Shown one piece after another: positions 6,041 to 29,427 of a stretch of DNA of 59,689 nt. Under the pieces are notes generated by a model, which was not told the DNA's origin, ran no database searches, and saw only the letters and a program-made list of their open reading frames with translations. Position 1 is the stretch's first letter; every line of letters starts with the position of its first letter. This stretch comes from Candidatus Kaiserbacteria bacterium (GTDB lineage Bacteria; Patescibacteriota; Minisyncoccia; Phycocordibacterales; JABAAK01): assembly GCA_028820405.1 (NCBI GenBank), contig JAPPJI010000004.1, forward strand, positions 1-59,689, given 5' to 3'. Both the position numbers and the translations under genes were made by a program.

Positions 6041-9000
6041 ATGCACCTTTCCGTCTCTTTTTTGCAAAAAAATTTCCTTTTTTTTATCCCCCTGCTTTGG
6101 TTTTTGCTGCTGCCGACAGTTTTTGGACAAACAAGTGTCACACAGGTCTCACTGCAGGCATATCTCCTCGCCGGTGATACTAACATACCGCTCCCGTCAA
6201 ACAACAGTACGATTCATCCGGGAGATCGTGTTCTCTTAGTTCTCAACGCAACACCTGCTCCTCAACAGCAAATTGCACCACACCTTCAGTGTGACCTCAC
6301 CAGTCTTGACGGTACGAAACGGACGATTGTTGACAGTGCACGAAAATTTCCTCAATCACGTCAGGTGACGATGAATATTGACGCCCGATCGGGGAGCGGG
6401 GAGGTTGTCTGCAGGGTTTCGGTCGGCTCTGACGCGTCAGCCGGCTATGTTATCGGAACACCGACGCACACCTTTCTCGTGGAAGCGAAGCCTGCGGTCT
6501 CCATCACGCCGTACGGAAGAGTGAAAGAAGGGAAACAGCCTGCAAGATTTTTGATAGAGGTGGTGGACATCATTAAAGGAATATCGGTTGACGTCGGTTA
6601 TGCCTGTTCCCGTAACGGTAACAGAATTATTGAGCGTTCCGGACAGGGTGCCCCCACCTTCACCGATACGAACCGCCGCCGCACGATCGAAGTTCCGGTG
6701 AACGAGTCGGATGGTGATGGTGACATTGTCTGTACAATACATGAGAGTAGTGCGTACCGAATTGTGCGGGGATCAGCAACGGTAGCGGTCGATGAGGATA
6801 TTCCCCTCGTTTCCCTCGACACAAAAGACAGGGTTGACCAGGTGAATGAACGTGATGCACGGATTGTTTTTTCTGTGCAGCTGAACAAGCCGGCACCGAG
6901 GGGCGGTCTGACCATTGACCTCTCTTGCAGAGGTTCCGGGTTCTCAGGCAATCTTCTCGACATACCGCTCGGCAATCGCGTTGTGCAGTCCGGGAGAAAG
7001 TTGCTCGCATTCCCGGTCAACTTCTCACATGTTCATGTTGCCCATAACCGCTCAAGTGCATCAATCACCTGTTCGCTCAAGAAGAGTGCCCTGTATGACG
7101 TGAACAGCCAGAAGCGGTCAAAGCGGGTGCAGGTGCAGGCGAAACCGCTCGTCTCACTTACCGCTCTGCCGGGTGTCTCGAGTGTGTACGCAGGAAGTGA
7201 GGCGGTTTTCAAGCTTTCTGGGGCGTATCTGACGAGTAGTCTGCTCGTGTCCCTGTCCTGCACTCACAACAAGGTGCCAATTAATATCGGGAGCAGCACC
7301 CTGTTATCAAAACAGCAGCCCGCACGATTCGTTACGATCCCTACCAATCAATTGGAAGAGGGACCGATCACGTGTAGCGTCAGCGATAACCCGGAGTACA
7401 ACGTGGAGAATCGTAAGGCGGAGATTCGGGTACTGAAAGCATCAGCCATTCCTGTTGTCTCCATTGATCCTGATGTCTCGCCGGTGACGATGACATTTGC
7501 AGGCAGCAAACCTTCTTCCGGTGGGTCGGCAAATATCGGGTTTGTTGTCCGTGCACAGTCGTCAGGAGCTGCTGGTGCGGATAGTGTGTTTGTTGACCTC
7601 TCATGCGGTCTCGGCACTCGCGGGTCGGCAGGAGAGTCAGCGCTGCGAAGGAGGGAAACAATCTCCGTTCCGATCAACGATCCGAGAGGACACACGGTAT
7701 CAATTTCCCTCACCAGACTTCCGTTCCGGGGAACGTTCGTCTACTGCAGATTGGAGGAGTACGGTGAAGGAAATAAAGGATCACTCTTTCAGGTAGGGAC
7801 ATCGAGATCGGCTGAGGTGGCGGTTAATCCGTTACCAGCTGTCTCACTGCAGACGAACAAAACAACAGCACTGTCAGTGAATGACATTGTCGAGGTACAA
7901 CTCCACTCTTTCTACACCGAAGGTCTCTCCGGTCCGGTACCGATTTCATGGAACTGCTCATTCCCCTCCGATGACGTTCGGGTGAGGAGAGTTGCAGTCA
8001 AAGGTCAGCAGGAGGTTGGTTCGTACGGCGGGAGAGCGGTGGTGACGAATAGTCCCGGGCTGACGGTTGTCGGACGTTTTCTTGTTGTCGGGTTGGGGAG
8101 CAGTCCGGGGCGAGGTTCTGTTGCTTGCTCACTTGAGCCGCAGACAGATTCCGATATTGTCTATCTTGATGACACCTTTGCCCTCGCAGTCACGTCGCCG
8201 CCCGCACTCTCAATCCATGCAGTTGTCAATGGTCCTGTGTATACCGACGGCATTGCACGATTTTCTGTCCGATCCAACGCTGCATCTGCTGCTGATATTT
8301 CTGCACGAGTTTCCTGTCGGTACGGTAGTGGCGGTGCGGTGCGGACCAGTCTTGCCAACAGCGGCGGATTTGCACTCATTCGGTCAGGGCTCCGGTCAAC
8401 AGATTTTACCGTTGATCTTCGGCTCGGTCACCGGCAGCAGTCACAGGTTGTCTGTTCACTGCAACCGGGCGGCGATTACGCAGTTATCGGCAGGCAGGCA
8501 TCCGTCACCCTTACCCAGCCAAGTGACCGGCCGATTATCAGCATTACTCCCCGCGACCCGGTGATCGGAAAAGAGAACGGCCGATTCCAAAACGCTGTTT
8601 TTGTCATCAACGGCACACGAATTCCTGCTGGCGGAGTAACCGTCGGTTTAAAGTGTCAGACACAAGACTTGTTCGTGCGAGATTTTCAAAAGACCGTTGA
8701 CCTCTCGCCCGGGTATTCGTCGGTAGCGCGTGTTGTGTCAATACAGAGGCTGCACGTGAGCCCCGGATACATTGCCTGTGCACTGCGTCCTTCTGAGAAT
8801 CGTCAGTATGATATCAGGGGATCACTGTCAGAGGCACTTGTGACCGTTGAGTATGAAGAAGGAATTTGTGGGCCGACCGGGTACTCTTGCGAGAGCGGGA
8901 AGCAGTATTGGGTCGAAGGTTATTACGGACCGAATACGTCCGCACTCAAGTGTCTCGGCGTCGGCGGCGGTGTCGACAGTGCAGTTTGTTTGGACGATAT

Positions 9001-11974
9001 TGTTCCGGCGACCCCCGATCCCGAACAACCTGGACCGCAGCCACCAACAGACACATGCCCGCTGCCATCAATATCTTTTGTTACCAAGACACCGGCAGTG
9101 AGGGAATCAGAGATGAATCGCACGATACGATTTGGTGTTCGGACTGACGTTTCAGGGCTAGAGACAAGATGCATCCCCACGTCAATATCCCTCTATTGTA
9201 AGGCGGTCGGCAGTGATGTGGAGATATTCCCGTCAGGGTCCCGTACGGCTGTTCCGGTTCGGACGCAGGGGAGTGGTGAAGTTGCCGTTGCGGTTGAGGT
9301 GGTGAGGGGAAATGTTCGTGATGTTGTTGTTGAATGCGGTATTGATGGCGGACCGAAACAAACGTTCATTGTTCCCGGATCCTCTCCTCAGGACCCTGCC
9401 ACCGATGCGTGTGTGATTCCAAGACTGGGCAGTATTGTTTCAGGTCAGTCTCTCTGTGCCGGTGGGTGGGCGATGTCAGGCGGTGTGAATGTGAGGATTA
9501 TCGGAGGTGATGCTACGTATGTTTGGAGTTGTACGGATGGTTCCGGGAATAGTCAAGAGTGTAAGCATGGGGTGAGAGAGGATGTTCCCGTTGAGCTGCG
9601 AGGGTATTACAAGATAGTAAATCATTCCGGTCCTGGTCGCGTTGATGTCGGACCTGAGCTGGTTCTGCAAAAAAATCAATCGACGCAGCTCTTTTTGCGT
9701 GCGTCTACGTTAGACGGAAGTCGGTTTGGGTTTGACATAAGGGACGTGAAGATAAGTTGCTACTATGAAAAGACAGAATCTGATCAGAGAGAATTCGTAT
9801 TTCCTGTAGGACCCGGAGGACCGGCTGTTTTTGTTACAATTCCTGCCGGCAGCAGTGAGAGCGCAGAGGTGCCTACTACTATTAAAGGTGCGGAACATCT
9901 GCAAGGATCTGACCTGACCTGTCGTATTGAGTTACACGGCAACAGCAATAATATCTACAATCCATCAGGCGGTGACATTGTTGTGGCAATTAATGGCGGT
10001 AAACGAGGAATTGGGGAATTTGAGCAATGCTGGATTGTGTTTTATGACAAGAGGGGGGCGGGAGGTATTCCGGACATCAATCCGGTAATCTCTGATGAGG
10101 GTGATTGCTACTACTATGTACAGAGGTGTGGCGGTCAAAGTTCAAGTGTGCCGAGAGATGGGATTGGAATCACGAGAACAATAGATAATTGTTACACCAT
10201 CGATCAGGTAAGAAAAATAGGAGCGTACATAAAGATCGGAGATCAGCCGTTGACTTGTGGGTGTCCGGGTAGAGGTTGTCAAAACTATGTTCCGCGAAAA
10301 ACAGATGGCAGTGCACAACTGTTTGATCCGGTTTCTGTTAATAATTTGATCAGGAACTACTTCTCGATACTGCATCCAGACTACCAAAACTCAATGGGCT
10401 GCACTCAGTTCAGGAGTGCGTATGCGAAAGGTAGCGGAGACTTTGACGGGAAGGACGGAGAAATAGCATATCCGTTTATCCCGGGTTCAGAACTGTACGG
10501 ATTTGTTTCGGAATCACCCACAGATTCTGGTTTCCGTCGACATTTCAGCAAACCAAGAACAGCACGAGCTATTTTTGACCGGCTGAGAACAAATGCGTTG
10601 CGGAATCCGTTTATGCATGGATTTGTCAAAGACCTTGAAGGATTTAGTGTTACCAGTACCGGTGACGATTCCTGTAACTTTAAAAAGAATGGTCAAACGG
10701 CAGCGATAGGTGCTGTTAATAGAAATCCAGATACCCAAGCAGTCTTTTCTTGCACAAATAGTATTGTGGGTCGTCAAGAAGGAGGTTATGCGTTCCCTGC
10801 ACAGATCGCATACTTTACTGAGCACAGAGGCGATACGGTTGGCGGCACAGAAGATGGAGAAGGATACGTTCTTGATGATTTGGTAATGGCAGTTTCTTTT
10901 GTTGAAAAGATTCGCGAGGGATCCGGTAGCAGCGGATTCTCGGTAGATAACCTACATATTAAGTGCTATGACAAAGAAATTGGCAGGAGTCCGGAATTAA
11001 TTTTTGATTCAAAGTATTCAGAAGGAGGGTTTGGGGTGAGTTATTTTGTTAAACATGACACAAAAAGATTAGGGTCGCCACACCTGGCATGGCTTGATTT
11101 ATATTCAGGATCATACTTTACTGAATACTGGAGAGACTTGTATTTTGGAGAAGTGAATAGGAAGAGTTTGTACTATCGGTACGCAGAGGTTATAGATGCT
11201 GTGATGTATGATTCCCTAAACAGAGCCGGGTTTATTGAACTATACTTGGGTGCTGGCACAAAAGAAGGTACGCCTAGATATGGGTATCATAAGCACAACA
11301 CGAAAGATCGTGACAGGGCCATTGTCCCAAGAATTTTTAATGCATTCATCCAGGGTTTGATTGATCCTGATGACCTTGATGAAGGTCCCGACTACTTTGA
11401 CCCGTTGGATCTGGTAACATCAACAGTGTTAACCGGAACTCCTCTTTTTGATACTTTTACCAAATTATTGCAGAATAAAAAGTCAATTAACAGTTACCCG
11501 TTGAGTAAAAACTATCTTATTTTACTCAACGGTTCGTGGAGAAATGATCGTTCATTGAAAAAACGGGATGTTATTGGCAGGAACATCTTTAACAGAACCC
11601 ACGCCGTGTTTGTTACCATACCAAGGAGTAAGTTTGGAAATAATGCGAAGTATATAGAAGGATCGTCTGCTATTCAATGTAGTTTGATACCAAATGGGTA
11701 TCATGTGTATGAAGACTATAACCACGGTATGTATGCAAATGTTCATTTCAACCTGGAACAGGTAGTATCACCACAAAATCAGAGTGCTGGCGGGACATCA
11801 GATAATCAACCCGTTTGTCCGGTACAGGTTAGTAATCACGATCTAGAAAACGAAGCAGATTGTTGCGAGATTCTTTTTGGTGGAGATACTGATCCTGATG
11901 ACAGTACGGGATGTCGACGGGTGATAGATACGTGGATAGAGTCGCAGCGAAATGGTTTGGGGGGGGGTAGGTAA
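6041..11974 (+). CDS. giant repetitive surface protein (1977 residues before frameshift)
   Basis: A signal peptide (MHLSVSF..., hydrophobic FFIPLLWFLLL, cleavage near FGQ) leads into at least seven related domains of about 110-120 residues (roughly residues 35-980). Each has a start like VSI.P, a central V.L.C, a strand ending I.C.L and a Tyr near the end; the two conserved Cys suggest disulfide-bonded immunoglobulin-like beta sandwiches. A Pro-rich linker (about 1000-1010) and a less regular, Tyr/Gly-rich region with many Cys follow. Codon use changes at about 9.5 kb, from GTC/ACC/CGT-rich to AGA/ATA/GTA-rich, so the second half may have a different origin. The frame ends at 11972-11974 just after nine G; with eight G it would continue to 12557. 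Probably a cell-surface adhesin or S-layer-like protein; the ligand is unknown. Confidence 0.8.
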   Translation: MHLSVSFLQKNFLFFIPLLWFLLLPTVFGQTSVTQVSLQAYLLAGDTNIPLPSNNSTIHPGDRVLLVLNATPAPQQQIAPHLQCDLTSLDGTKRTIVDSARKFPQSRQVTMNIDARSGSGEVVCRVSVGSDASAGYVIGTPTHTFLVEAKPAVSITPYGRVKEGKQPARFLIEVVDIIKGISVDVGYACSRNGNRIIERSGQGAPTFTDTNRRRTIEVPVNESDGDGDIVCTIHESSAYRIVRGSATVAVDEDIPLVSLDTKDRVDQVNERDARIVFSVQLNKPAPRGGLTIDLSCRGSGFSGNLLDIPLGNRVVQSGRKLLAFPVNFSHVHVAHNRSSASITCSLKKSALYDVNSQKRSKRVQVQAKPLVSLTALPGVSSVYAGSEAVFKLSGAYLTSSLLVSLSCTHNKVPINIGSSTLLSKQQPARFVTIPTNQLEEGPITCSVSDNPEYNVENRKAEIRVLKASAIPVVSIDPDVSPVTMTFAGSKPSSGGSANIGFVVRAQSSGAAGADSVFVDLSCGLGTRGSAGESALRRRETISVPINDPRGHTVSISLTRLPFRGTFVYCRLEEYGEGNKGSLFQVGTSRSAEVAVNPLPAVSLQTNKTTALSVNDIVEVQLHSFYTEGLSGPVPISWNCSFPSDDVRVRRVAVKGQQEVGSYGGRAVVTNSPGLTVVGRFLVVGLGSSPGRGSVACSLEPQTDSDIVYLDDTFALAVTSPPALSIHAVVNGPVYTDGIARFSVRSNAASAADISARVSCRYGSGGAVRTSLANSGGFALIRSGLRSTDFTVDLRLGHRQQSQVVCSLQPGGDYAVIGRQASVTLTQPSDRPIISITPRDPVIGKENGRFQNAVFVINGTRIPAGGVTVGLKCQTQDLFVRDFQKTVDLSPGYSSVARVVSIQRLHVSPGYIACALRPSENRQYDIRGSLSEALVTVEYEEGICGPTGYSCESGKQYWVEGYYGPNTSALKCLGVGGGVDSAVCLDDIVPATPDPEQPGPQPPTDTCPLPSISFVTKTPAVRESEMNRTIRFGVRTDVSGLETRCIPTSISLYCKAVGSDVEIFPSGSRTAVPVRTQGSGEVAVAVEVVRGNVRDVVVECGIDGGPKQTFIVPGSSPQDPATDACVIPRLGSIVSGQSLCAGGWAMSGGVNVRIIGGDATYVWSCTDGSGNSQECKHGVREDVPVELRGYYKIVNHSGPGRVDVGPELVLQKNQSTQLFLRASTLDGSRFGFDIRDVKISCYYEKTESDQREFVFPVGPGGPAVFVTIPAGSSESAEVPTTIKGAEHLQGSDLTCRIELHGNSNNIYNPSGGDIVVAINGGKRGIGEFEQCWIVFYDKRGAGGIPDINPVISDEGDCYYYVQRCGGQSSSVPRDGIGITRTIDNCYTIDQVRKIGAYIKIGDQPLTCGCPGRGCQNYVPRKTDGSAQLFDPVSVNNLIRNYFSILHPDYQNSMGCTQFRSAYAKGSGDFDGKDGEIAYPFIPGSELYGFVSESPTDSGFRRHFSKPRTARAIFDRLRTNALRNPFMHGFVKDLEGFSVTSTGDDSCNFKKNGQTAAIGAVNRNPDTQAVFSCTNSIVGRQEGGYAFPAQIAYFTEHRGDTVGGTEDGEGYVLDDLVMAVSFVEKIREGSGSSGFSVDNLHIKCYDKEIGRSPELIFDSKYSEGGFGVSYFVKHDTKRLGSPHLAWLDLYSGSYFTEYWRDLYFGEVNRKSLYYRYAEVIDAVMYDSLNRAGFIELYLGAGTKEGTPRYGYHKHNTKDRDRAIVPRIFNAFIQGLIDPDDLDEGPDYFDPLDLVTSTVLTGTPLFDTFTKLLQNKKSINSYPLSKNYLILLNGSWRNDRSLKKRDVIGRNIFNRTHAVFVTIPRSKFGNNAKYIEGSSAIQCSLIPNGYHVYEDYNHGMYANVHFNLEQVVSPQNQSAGGTSDNQPVCPVQVSNHDLENEADCCEILFGGDTDPDDSTGCRRVIDTWIESQRNGLGGGR

Positions 11975-12557
11975 TATCAGTACGGATCCTGCTATTGATC
12001 CGACAGATACCACCGCACCAACTATTACCGTCGCCCGTCCGTATGATATTTTGGCTAATCGTCCTGAAGGCAGGGTCTACCTCAGAGGTCTCTATGCGAC
12101 TGACGATGATGGTGATCCAACAACCTGGGTATATGTCAATGTGGCAAACGCTCAGTCCAAAACCAGTTGTGCGGCGAGTGATTTCAATTTGTCGATACCG
12201 TATACCGAAGCAGGCGGTCTCTCTTTCAACCCTGAGACGGACGGTAACAGCAAGGTCTGTTTTCGGTCAACAGATGCCAATGGTAACCATGGTTACGGGA
12301 TATCCGATCTCATCGGCAATACCGGTGATACGGAAATTCCTCGTAACAATTGTCCAAAATGGCTCGTTGACTACAATTCAGAAAACGGAGTTGATTGTTG
12401 CAGTGCCTATCAAGAGGCTGATCCCAGCGCTTTCTTTTATCAGGATACCGATCCTTCTACTGATGACACTGAGTGTGTCAGGATGATATGTGAGTACCTT
12501 AAAAAAGAAGAAACTTTTCTCAGTGAATTGCAGGCAGACTATTGGTGTTCAACATAA
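11952..12557 (+). CDS. out-of-frame C-terminal part of the giant surface protein
   Basis: This +1 frame continues the surface protein if one G is lost from the run at 11959-11967, reading NGLGGVGNIS... It holds a beta-rich domain (TAPTITVARPYD...) and a C-terminal Cys-rich motif DCC...DTDP.TDDTEC followed by a helix. That motif closely resembles DCCEILFGGDTDPDDSTGC at the end of the first frame, so the two belong to one protein architecture. It lacks a promoter or a convincing ribosome site of its own: the only ATG (11952) lies inside the preceding gene. Likely expressed only by slippage or in a cell whose tract length differs. Confidence 0.65.
   Translation: MVWGGVGNISTDPAIDPTDTTAPTITVARPYDILANRPEGRVYLRGLYATDDDGDPTTWVYVNVANAQSKTSCAASDFNLSIPYTEAGGLSFNPETDGNSKVCFRSTDANGNHGYGISDLIGNTGDTEIPRNNCPKWLVDYNSENGVDCCSAYQEADPSAFFYQDTDPSTDDTECVRMICEYLKKEETFLSELQADYWCST
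11959..11967 (+). repeat. G9 homopolymer in a surface-protein gene
   Basis: Nine G between TTT and TAG. Tract lengths of 8, 5 or 11 would join the two frames; 9 stops translation at 11974. Possible phase-variation switch, or a read or assembly error. Confidence 0.6.
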
Positions 12558-28129: not shown

Positions 28130-28413
28130 CTATTCACCCCTTTTTGTGTGAGGGAGATGGCAGAAGAGGGGTCATTTTCCTGAAAATAAAGGGCTTTTGG
28201 AGCGAAAAAGGGTGTTTGTGAGGGGCATGGGTAAAAACAAGTCTTCCCTACTGGATAAGTTGATAAAATCCCCTTATTTAAAGCCTTTATTTAGAGAAGT
28301 AAAGGGTTTTTCGGGGGGGGGCTAGCATTTTTCCCCATTTAATGATATTGTGTGATACAAGCCTGTGTGTGCATTTCGGCTTCGGGATGCATATGCATGG
28401 CGATTAACTGAGT
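28130..28413. other. AT-rich spacer with inverted repeat and G9 run
   Basis: No gene seen. An imperfect inverted repeat pairs AAATAAAGGGCTTT (28184-28197) with AAAGCCTTTATTT (28280-28292). A run of nine G lies at 28313-28321, the second G9 in the window. It is upstream of the sigma-region-4/HARE-HTH gene, whose own promoter I cannot place with confidence. Confidence 0.5.
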
Positions 28414-29427
28414 ATGAAAATCCAAATCAAACAATCAGTCGACCAAGCTCTACAAGCGCTCAACAAACAACAGCGTGAGGTCATCTCATTGCGTTTTGGT
28501 TTGGAGGATGGAAAGAAATGGGTACTCCAGGAAATCGCTAATGAATACAATCTGACCCGTGAGCGAATACGGCAAATCCAGAACACGGCACTGAAGCAGC
28601 TGCGAAAGGACCCCTGTGTCCAGTCGCTCTCTGAGGTAGTCAGCCATGTTGAGGACACCCTTCGTCTGTGTGGCGGTGTGTCATCCGAGGAGCGTCTGTG
28701 TCTGTCATGTGAGGCATCAACAAAGGCAGAGAAAAACTATGTACACCTGCTTCTGACGATTGCTGAGCAGTTCTCTCAGGCATCTGAAACCGACCACGCT
28801 GAAAAGCATTGGTACCTCGACGAGGAGAGTCGGGATCGGGCACACGGCATACTGGAACATCTCCATACGGAGATTGAAAAGAAGAAAGATGCGGTACTTG
28901 AGTCTCAGGAAGTGGAAGGGGTGCTTGCAAACGCACCGTACCAGTGTCCGGCAGACTATACCGTTATCACCGACCTCTCAAAGAAGGTAAGCCGAAACTA
29001 TCGCGGTGAGTGGGGAATCAAAGGTCACCCGGAGATTGCACTCAACACACTTGCCGGTTACATCACCGTTGTTCTGCGGACAGAAGGGAAGCCGCTTCAC
29101 TTCACAGAAATCTCAAAGAAGATTTCAGAGGCGAAGGGTTCACCGTGTCACCAGGAGAGCTGTCACAACGAACTGGTCCGACGAAAGGAGTTTATCCTCG
29201 TTGGTCGTGGTATGTATGCCCTTGCCGGTATGGGATACCGTTCCGGTACCGTTGCTGACATCATTCTGGCAATCCTCAAGGAGAAGGGTCCGATGACTCA
29301 AGCGGTTATTATCGAGCGCGTAAAGAAAGAGCGATTGGTGAAAGATCAGTCAATTGTTTCTGTTCTGAACAACAACAAGCAGTTCGTAAAAAACGAAGAT
29401 AAAGAGTACTGTTTGGCTGAGGAATAA
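28414..29427 (+). CDS. sigma-region-4 / HARE-HTH regulator
   Basis: 337 residues. Residues 1-65 form a sigma-70 region 4 helix-turn-helix, including LNKQQREVISLRFGL and LQEIANEYNLTRERIRQIQNTALKQLR, the segment that reads -35 elements and touches the beta flap. Regions 1 to 3 of a real sigma factor are absent. A long helical linker is followed by a HARE-HTH winged-helix domain (about residues 210-335, with ILKEKGPMTQAVIIERVKKE). This combination acts as a transcription regulator or RNA polymerase accessory factor in some bacterial lineages. It lies alone between the exported-protein locus and a membrane-protein operon. Confidence 0.8.
   Translation: MKIQIKQSVDQALQALNKQQREVISLRFGLEDGKKWVLQEIANEYNLTRERIRQIQNTALKQLRKDPCVQSLSEVVSHVEDTLRLCGGVSSEERLCLSCEASTKAEKNYVHLLLTIAEQFSQASETDHAEKHWYLDEESRDRAHGILEHLHTEIEKKKDAVLESQEVEGVLANAPYQCPADYTVITDLSKKVSRNYRGEWGIKGHPEIALNTLAGYITVVLRTEGKPLHFTEISKKISEAKGSPCHQESCHNELVRRKEFILVGRGMYALAGMGYRSGTVADIILAILKEKGPMTQAVIIERVKKERLVKDQSIVSVLNNNKQFVKNEDKEYCLAEE

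Follow-up and report, generated by a model that had tools for sequence, protein, structure and literature searches.

The DNA analysed here, the window, is a stretch of 59,689 nucleotides that makes up one contig (C24) of a Candidatus Kaiserbacteria genome of 636.6 kb in 27 contigs. On its forward strand it carries a very long open reading frame that breaks at a run of nine G, followed by a second frame that continues for a further 195 codons or so. The features to which we refer below are as follows (basis in brackets).

6041–11974 (+): giant secreted-protein frame, ATG start, 1,977 aa when the tract is G9 (ORF translation)
11810–11950 (+): Cys motif copy 1 (CP..EN..DCC..DTDP..C.R.I), the last module before the break (alignment, profile)
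11959–11967 (+): G9 tract, frame break (tract-length computation)
11968–12557 (+): downstream frame, about 195 codons, a C-terminal extension when fused (domain match, coding bias)
11972–11974 (+): TAA stop of the G9 state (translation)
12006–12317 (+): predicted Ig-like (beta-sandwich) domain, paralogous to the tandem copies on contigs C10, C11, C20 and C26 (profile, AlphaFold2)
12339–12530 (+): Cys motif copy 2, the end of the fused protein (alignment, profile)

The giant protein begins with a hydrophobic, signal-peptide-like stretch, and its residues 44–942 hold about eight degenerate repeats in tandem, each ~110 aa long and with a single Cys pair. A preliminary description, made from the letters alone, had called it a 2000-residue surface protein; its length and signal-like N-terminus bear out a large, secreted, repeat-rich product, which is presumably displayed on the cell surface. 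Searches of Pfam, NCBIfam and PDB sequences returned no family for either frame. Comparison with relatives, which the preliminary description had proposed, gave no homologue of the giant protein in 40 relatives, nor did IMG/VR, while the domain family of the downstream frame proved to be conserved. In the same-genus genome G002 the giant gene is missing at the syntenic place, where tRNA-Val lies no more than about 3 kb beyond L19 and tRNA-Leu, and two short genes are all that separates them.

The G9 tract falls in the 3′ part of the coding region, with 1,973 of about 2,171 codons before it. The TAA that ends the giant frame starts at the fifth base 3′ of the tract, as had been noted before, and the second frame, open from 11940 to 12557 (+), lies at +1 relative to the giant frame, such that the loss of one G fuses both. 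Its length of 201 aa, counted from an ATG at 11952, or about 195 codons past the tract, agrees with the ~200 residues first given for it. Direct computation shows that tracts of n = 8 or n = 11 yield a single fused protein of 2,171 or 2,172 aa, and that tracts of n = 7, 9, or 10 yield a protein that ends at 1,975–1,977 aa; the G8 product of 2,171 aa confirms that removal of one G is sufficient to join the frames. The length of the tract is above chance given the decay of run counts in the window, in which G/C runs of 4, 5, 6, 7, and 8 nt number 183, 48, 6, 0, and 0, followed by two runs of 9.

The two frames end alike. The Cys-rich motif that precedes the break and the one that closes the downstream frame, whose resemblance had been noticed at the outset, are 37% identical, with 18 invariant columns that include C-P, E-N..D-C-C, and DTDP. 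A profile built from the two copies hits exactly two sites in the genome, one ending each frame, and gives only weak, chance-level matches (E > 0.02) in the 40 relatives.

Between the tract and the second Cys motif, the downstream frame encodes a domain of ~100 residues with a conserved Cys pair, which matches the profile of the genome's 25+ tandem copies with E = 4e-32. These copies occur as tandem arrays at four other places in the genome (C10, C11, C20, and C26), always within long secreted proteins; the giant frame itself holds zero copies, and no signal peptide is present in the downstream frame. AlphaFold2 predicts a confident all-beta structure, with pLDDT mostly 80–97 over the core. 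The domain has no Pfam match, and Foldseek finds weak matches to intimin, FN3, PKD, and Ig domains (best E = 0.06); therefore, "Ig-like" describes the predicted fold, rather than established family membership. A scan of the genome collection with P0002 as the query found no homologues of the downstream frame, and a query with the domain alignment returned a single distant match, L054. Coding bias amounts to 0.07 bits per codon in the downstream frame versus 0.10 in the giant frame and is maximal in that reading frame, and the stretch runs for its full length with no stop or further frameshift and with the conserved domain residues kept. By these measures, the downstream frame is genuine coding sequence. 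Since it codes, contains an Ig-like domain that the genome otherwise has only in large secreted proteins, and ends in the same Cys motif as the giant frame, the simplest reading of the sequence is that both frames are one gene split at the tract.

Two of the genes with tandem copies, the surface-protein genes on C20 (L030) and C26 (L032), run off their contig ends within identical tandem Ig-like repeats, and their products begin alike (MITxPF).

G-tracts elsewhere in the genome and in relatives

The genome contains 13 G-runs of 8–10 nt (5 G8, 4 G9, and 4 G10). Runs of at least 9 nt number 8, versus about 0.14–3.3 expected from the decay of shorter runs, an excess with p from 4e-12 to 0.02 depending on the decay ratio; these statistics draw on the window, further stretches of the same genome, and whole-genome pattern counts. 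Four of the 13 tracts lie at Ig-repeat genes, the window locus included, and one is in a methyltransferase gene. At three of the four other Ig-domain loci, all at genes with signal peptides, a G8–10 tract stands on the coding strand 25, 59, or 93 nt upstream of the likely start, a placement for which 0.14 cases are expected (p = 3e-4, window excluded). As judged from its placement, the tract set appears to be concentrated at genes for secreted proteins and at a DNA methyltransferase, as a repertoire of contingency loci would be.

Several of these tracts may be promoter elements. A −10-like box directly follows 5 of 12 G8+ runs in the genome versus 12 of 163 G5–7 runs (p = 0.0025), and the same enrichment after G8+ runs is seen in relatives (p = 0.0014). 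A good TTGACA-like box 16–21 nt before the −10-like box was found in four cases from order-level relatives (L076, L078, L102, and L103); no good −35 box was found at the tracts of the genome itself. Intergenic G9–G11 tracts between TTGACA-like and TATAAT-like boxes are present in these four and in others among L055–L118. The second G9 of the window (28313–28321) is intergenic, is followed by a TAGCAT box, and lies about 90 nt upstream of a gene (28414–29427) with sigma-70 region 4 and HARE-HTH domains. The split-gene tract was also considered as a promoter, with TAATAT 4 nt 3′ of it, but this was rejected, as the best −35 box matches at only 3/6 positions; the lack of a signal peptide in the downstream frame was a further ground.

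Several other tracts have distinctive surroundings. The element TTTAyACACACATGA-G8/10-yAGGTCTTTA is common to L032 6819–6860 (C26), upstream of the surface repeat gene, and to the minus strand of L034 at 7900–7935 (C21), upstream of a tRNA-synt_1b gene (class I, W/Y type). On the minus strand of L033, at the end of contig C16, a G10 (138–147) lies in the 5′ region of a putative lipoprotein gene, and a G9 (253–261) lies in frame within the signal peptide of the same gene. A repeated TTTCACATGAAA, resembling ParB sites, occurs on the minus strand of L035 (5450–5610) just upstream of a G10 tract. In genome G054, G9+ runs cluster within about 100 nt of the ends of contigs C4, C11, C15–C18, and C23, several with the same flank; these end-proximal tracts may be a repeated element or may have arisen artefactually in sequencing or assembly.

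The window locus is not the only gene broken at a G-tract. At C10:11068–12010 (−; L125 569–1511), the frame of an M.HhaI-like C5 DNA methyltransferase is broken exactly at a G8 (C10:11323–11330), which is one G longer than the in-frame length. The part before the break matches PF00145 with E = 2e-68, and the last 88 codons, in another frame, match PF00145 with E = 7e-8 and residues 234–311 of M.HhaI with E = 5e-20. Since the intact methyltransferase is a known family, the break at its G-tract is certain as sequence, and the gene is a candidate phase-variable methyltransferase. An EcoRI-family restriction endonuclease (PF02963, E = 2e-10) is encoded in the window at 687–1433.

In the same-genus genome G001, the paralogous lipoprotein genes L047 (contig C2) and L049 (contig C5) each contain a run of nine C shortly past the lipobox, about 28 codons after the start; the run keeps the frame in L049 but breaks it in L047, where a 200-codon open frame follows. 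The gene for a ~1,370-residue protein in G002 (L052) has an in-frame G8 directly after the signal-peptide region, and the genome under study has in-frame G-tracts on C16 (G9) and C21 (G8). As in-frame tracts exist beside broken ones, both on and off states are represented in the set. Two of four coding G-runs of at least 8 nt are broken, versus 0 of 20 A/T runs (p = 0.02, a small sample). The on/off mixture fits contingency loci, although each case alone could be mutation or error.

Explanations for the broken frame

The window locus is probably, though by no means certainly, a site of C-terminal phase variation (a contingency locus). In this mechanism, the G9 would be a hypermutable contingency site in the gene for a large secreted repeat protein, with slipped-strand mispairing altering the tract length. 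At G8 or G11, translation would continue through the extra Ig-like domain and the second Cys motif to give about 2,171 aa, whereas a tract of G7, G9, or G10 would end translation just past the first Cys motif, at about 1,976 aa. Expression would thus persist in either state, the switch only adding or removing one terminal Ig-like domain, and the Cys motif would close both forms. The locus shows what is expected of such a switch at the sequence level, namely an over-long homopolymer in the 3′ part of the coding region whose different lengths change the C-terminus or fuse a genuine frame. Phase variation had already been suggested in the preliminary description, and the split gene, the coding tail, and the repertoire of tracts at secreted-protein genes and a methyltransferase make that reading plausible and better supported than it was there. 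The mechanism would imply that tract length varies within the population, and that changing the tip of a surface protein in contact with a host cell or phages brings some advantage. A single tract allele was seen, and a search of the assembly itself and of the viral contigs in IMG/VR found no second one. G9 is among the shorter of the tracts proven to switch, which counts against switching.

It is unlikely that the break is instead a fixed frameshift, in which the gain of one base in the poly-G truncated the gene in this lineage, non-reversibly and with a decaying tail. A G-run is a mutation hotspot even when there is no selection for switching, and the gene is lineage-specific, with no relatives, both of which are compatible with such an event. 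A decaying tail, however, is not what is seen over some 195 codons that are free of stops and frameshifts and retain coding bias and the conserved residues of the domain. The genome's further tracts, which lie at promoter regions and in a second gene of phase-variable type, also argue against it.

A sequence or assembly error, such that the true tract has eight G and the gene is intact, was the main alternative in the preliminary description and now seems rather unlikely. The terminal 55 bases of contigs C20 and C26, within the repeat array, are identical, and a stretch of exactly 100 N is present in C11, from which we infer a k = 55 de Bruijn short-read assembly with scaffolding. Single-base run errors are rarer in short-read than in long-read data; therefore, this signature makes a homopolymer error less likely. 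In 175 kb of the genome's own sequence, the frame runs uninterrupted through 129 coding homopolymers of at least 6 nt, 20 of which are A/T runs of 7–9 nt, and the sole +1 break in the scan is the G9 of the window. Three other frame switches at A/T runs were set aside, as their −1 geometry is that of chance frames or of ordinary genes that overlap or adjoin. The frame is restored by one base fewer, and the G8 of the methyltransferase is likewise one G too long, the pattern expected from systematic over-call; both broken genes could thus reflect one G too many. Such an over-call of G-runs is, however, not obvious, as the C16 G9 and the C21 G8 are in frame.

Programmed slippage, either of RNA polymerase on the G9 or as a ribosomal +1 shift, would make both products constantly from one allele. 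The site reads GGG-GGG-GGT-AGG-TAA, so that the less common AGG codon (39/6,349) and a stop adjoin the G9, and the change needed is precisely a +1 shift or the loss of one G. The commoner type of programmed frameshift is −1, but here a −1 shift runs straight into a TAG, and we regard this explanation as improbable. Finally, two separate genes overlapping at the tract are highly improbable: an ATG (11952) does lie shortly before the tract in the appropriate frame, but it is preceded by no Shine-Dalgarno-like sequence, its product would have no signal peptide despite a domain with a conserved Cys pair that is elsewhere found only in secreted proteins, and the Cys motif ties both frames together.

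Known systems and the lineage

Ribosomal protein L30 is missing in 60/60 genomes of the order, this one included, and is found in 13/14 controls; the genomes of the order measure 0.3–1.1 Mb. By its small size and the absence of L30, the genome almost certainly belongs to the Patescibacteria (CPR) lineage. Little is known of how surfaces vary in the Patescibacteria, which are believed to live attached to other microbes. Among the open-access papers searched, none connects Patescibacteria or CPR in this sense with phase variation, phase-variable genes, or slipped-strand mispairing, which is weak evidence of novelty; the nearest concerns a gracilibacterium (PMC6851277).

Late poly-G tracts are known to give C-terminal phase variation in Helicobacter canadensis, with read-level length variation (PMC2823697). 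As proposed for the window locus, a poly-G late in the coding region changes the C-terminus there without stopping expression. Most such changes involve between a few and 35 residues, two reading frames are joined in one case, and the candidates have G10 or more (PMC2823697), whereas the window locus, known from one assembly allele, would gain or lose a whole Ig-like domain and a Cys motif. In Neisseria gonorrhoeae, C-terminal phase variation occurs in NGK_1211/NGK_1212, pilin, and mafB; one of the three frames of NGK_1211 fuses to NGK_1212, as backed by strain comparison, and G8 varies in some gonococcal genes (PMC5320596). The fusion of one frame with a downstream coding sequence is shared with the window locus, which is known from a single genome. 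Promoter poly-G phase variation is exemplified by porA of Neisseria meningitidis (PMC3639595), and the G-tracts between −35 and −10 boxes, clearest in the relatives L076, L078, and L103, resemble it; the porA tract acts on the level of expression, whereas the window tract sits within a coding region. In a gracilibacterium, a hypervariable surface gene with repeats shows synonymous variation of 9-mer repeats (PMC6851277). This is likewise local hypervariability of a secreted-protein gene in Patescibacteria/CPR, but with no homopolymer frame switching.

Late poly-G switching of the C-terminus is therefore already known in Helicobacter and Neisseria, and the more interesting part here is the repertoire of tracts in a Patescibacteria-like genome. 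We tentatively suggest that this bacterium and its order may run a poly-G phase-variation programme, with reversible tracts in the promoters and reading frames of genes for secreted repeat proteins, lipoproteins, and a methyltransferase (a possible phasevarion), in which the window locus toggles a terminal domain while keeping its Cys ending. Gene calling in such genomes splits real large surface proteins at G-tracts. If the tracts switch, a genome of 0.6 Mb devotes several loci to stochastic surface variation, with a possible bearing on host range and on escape from phages in clonal populations.
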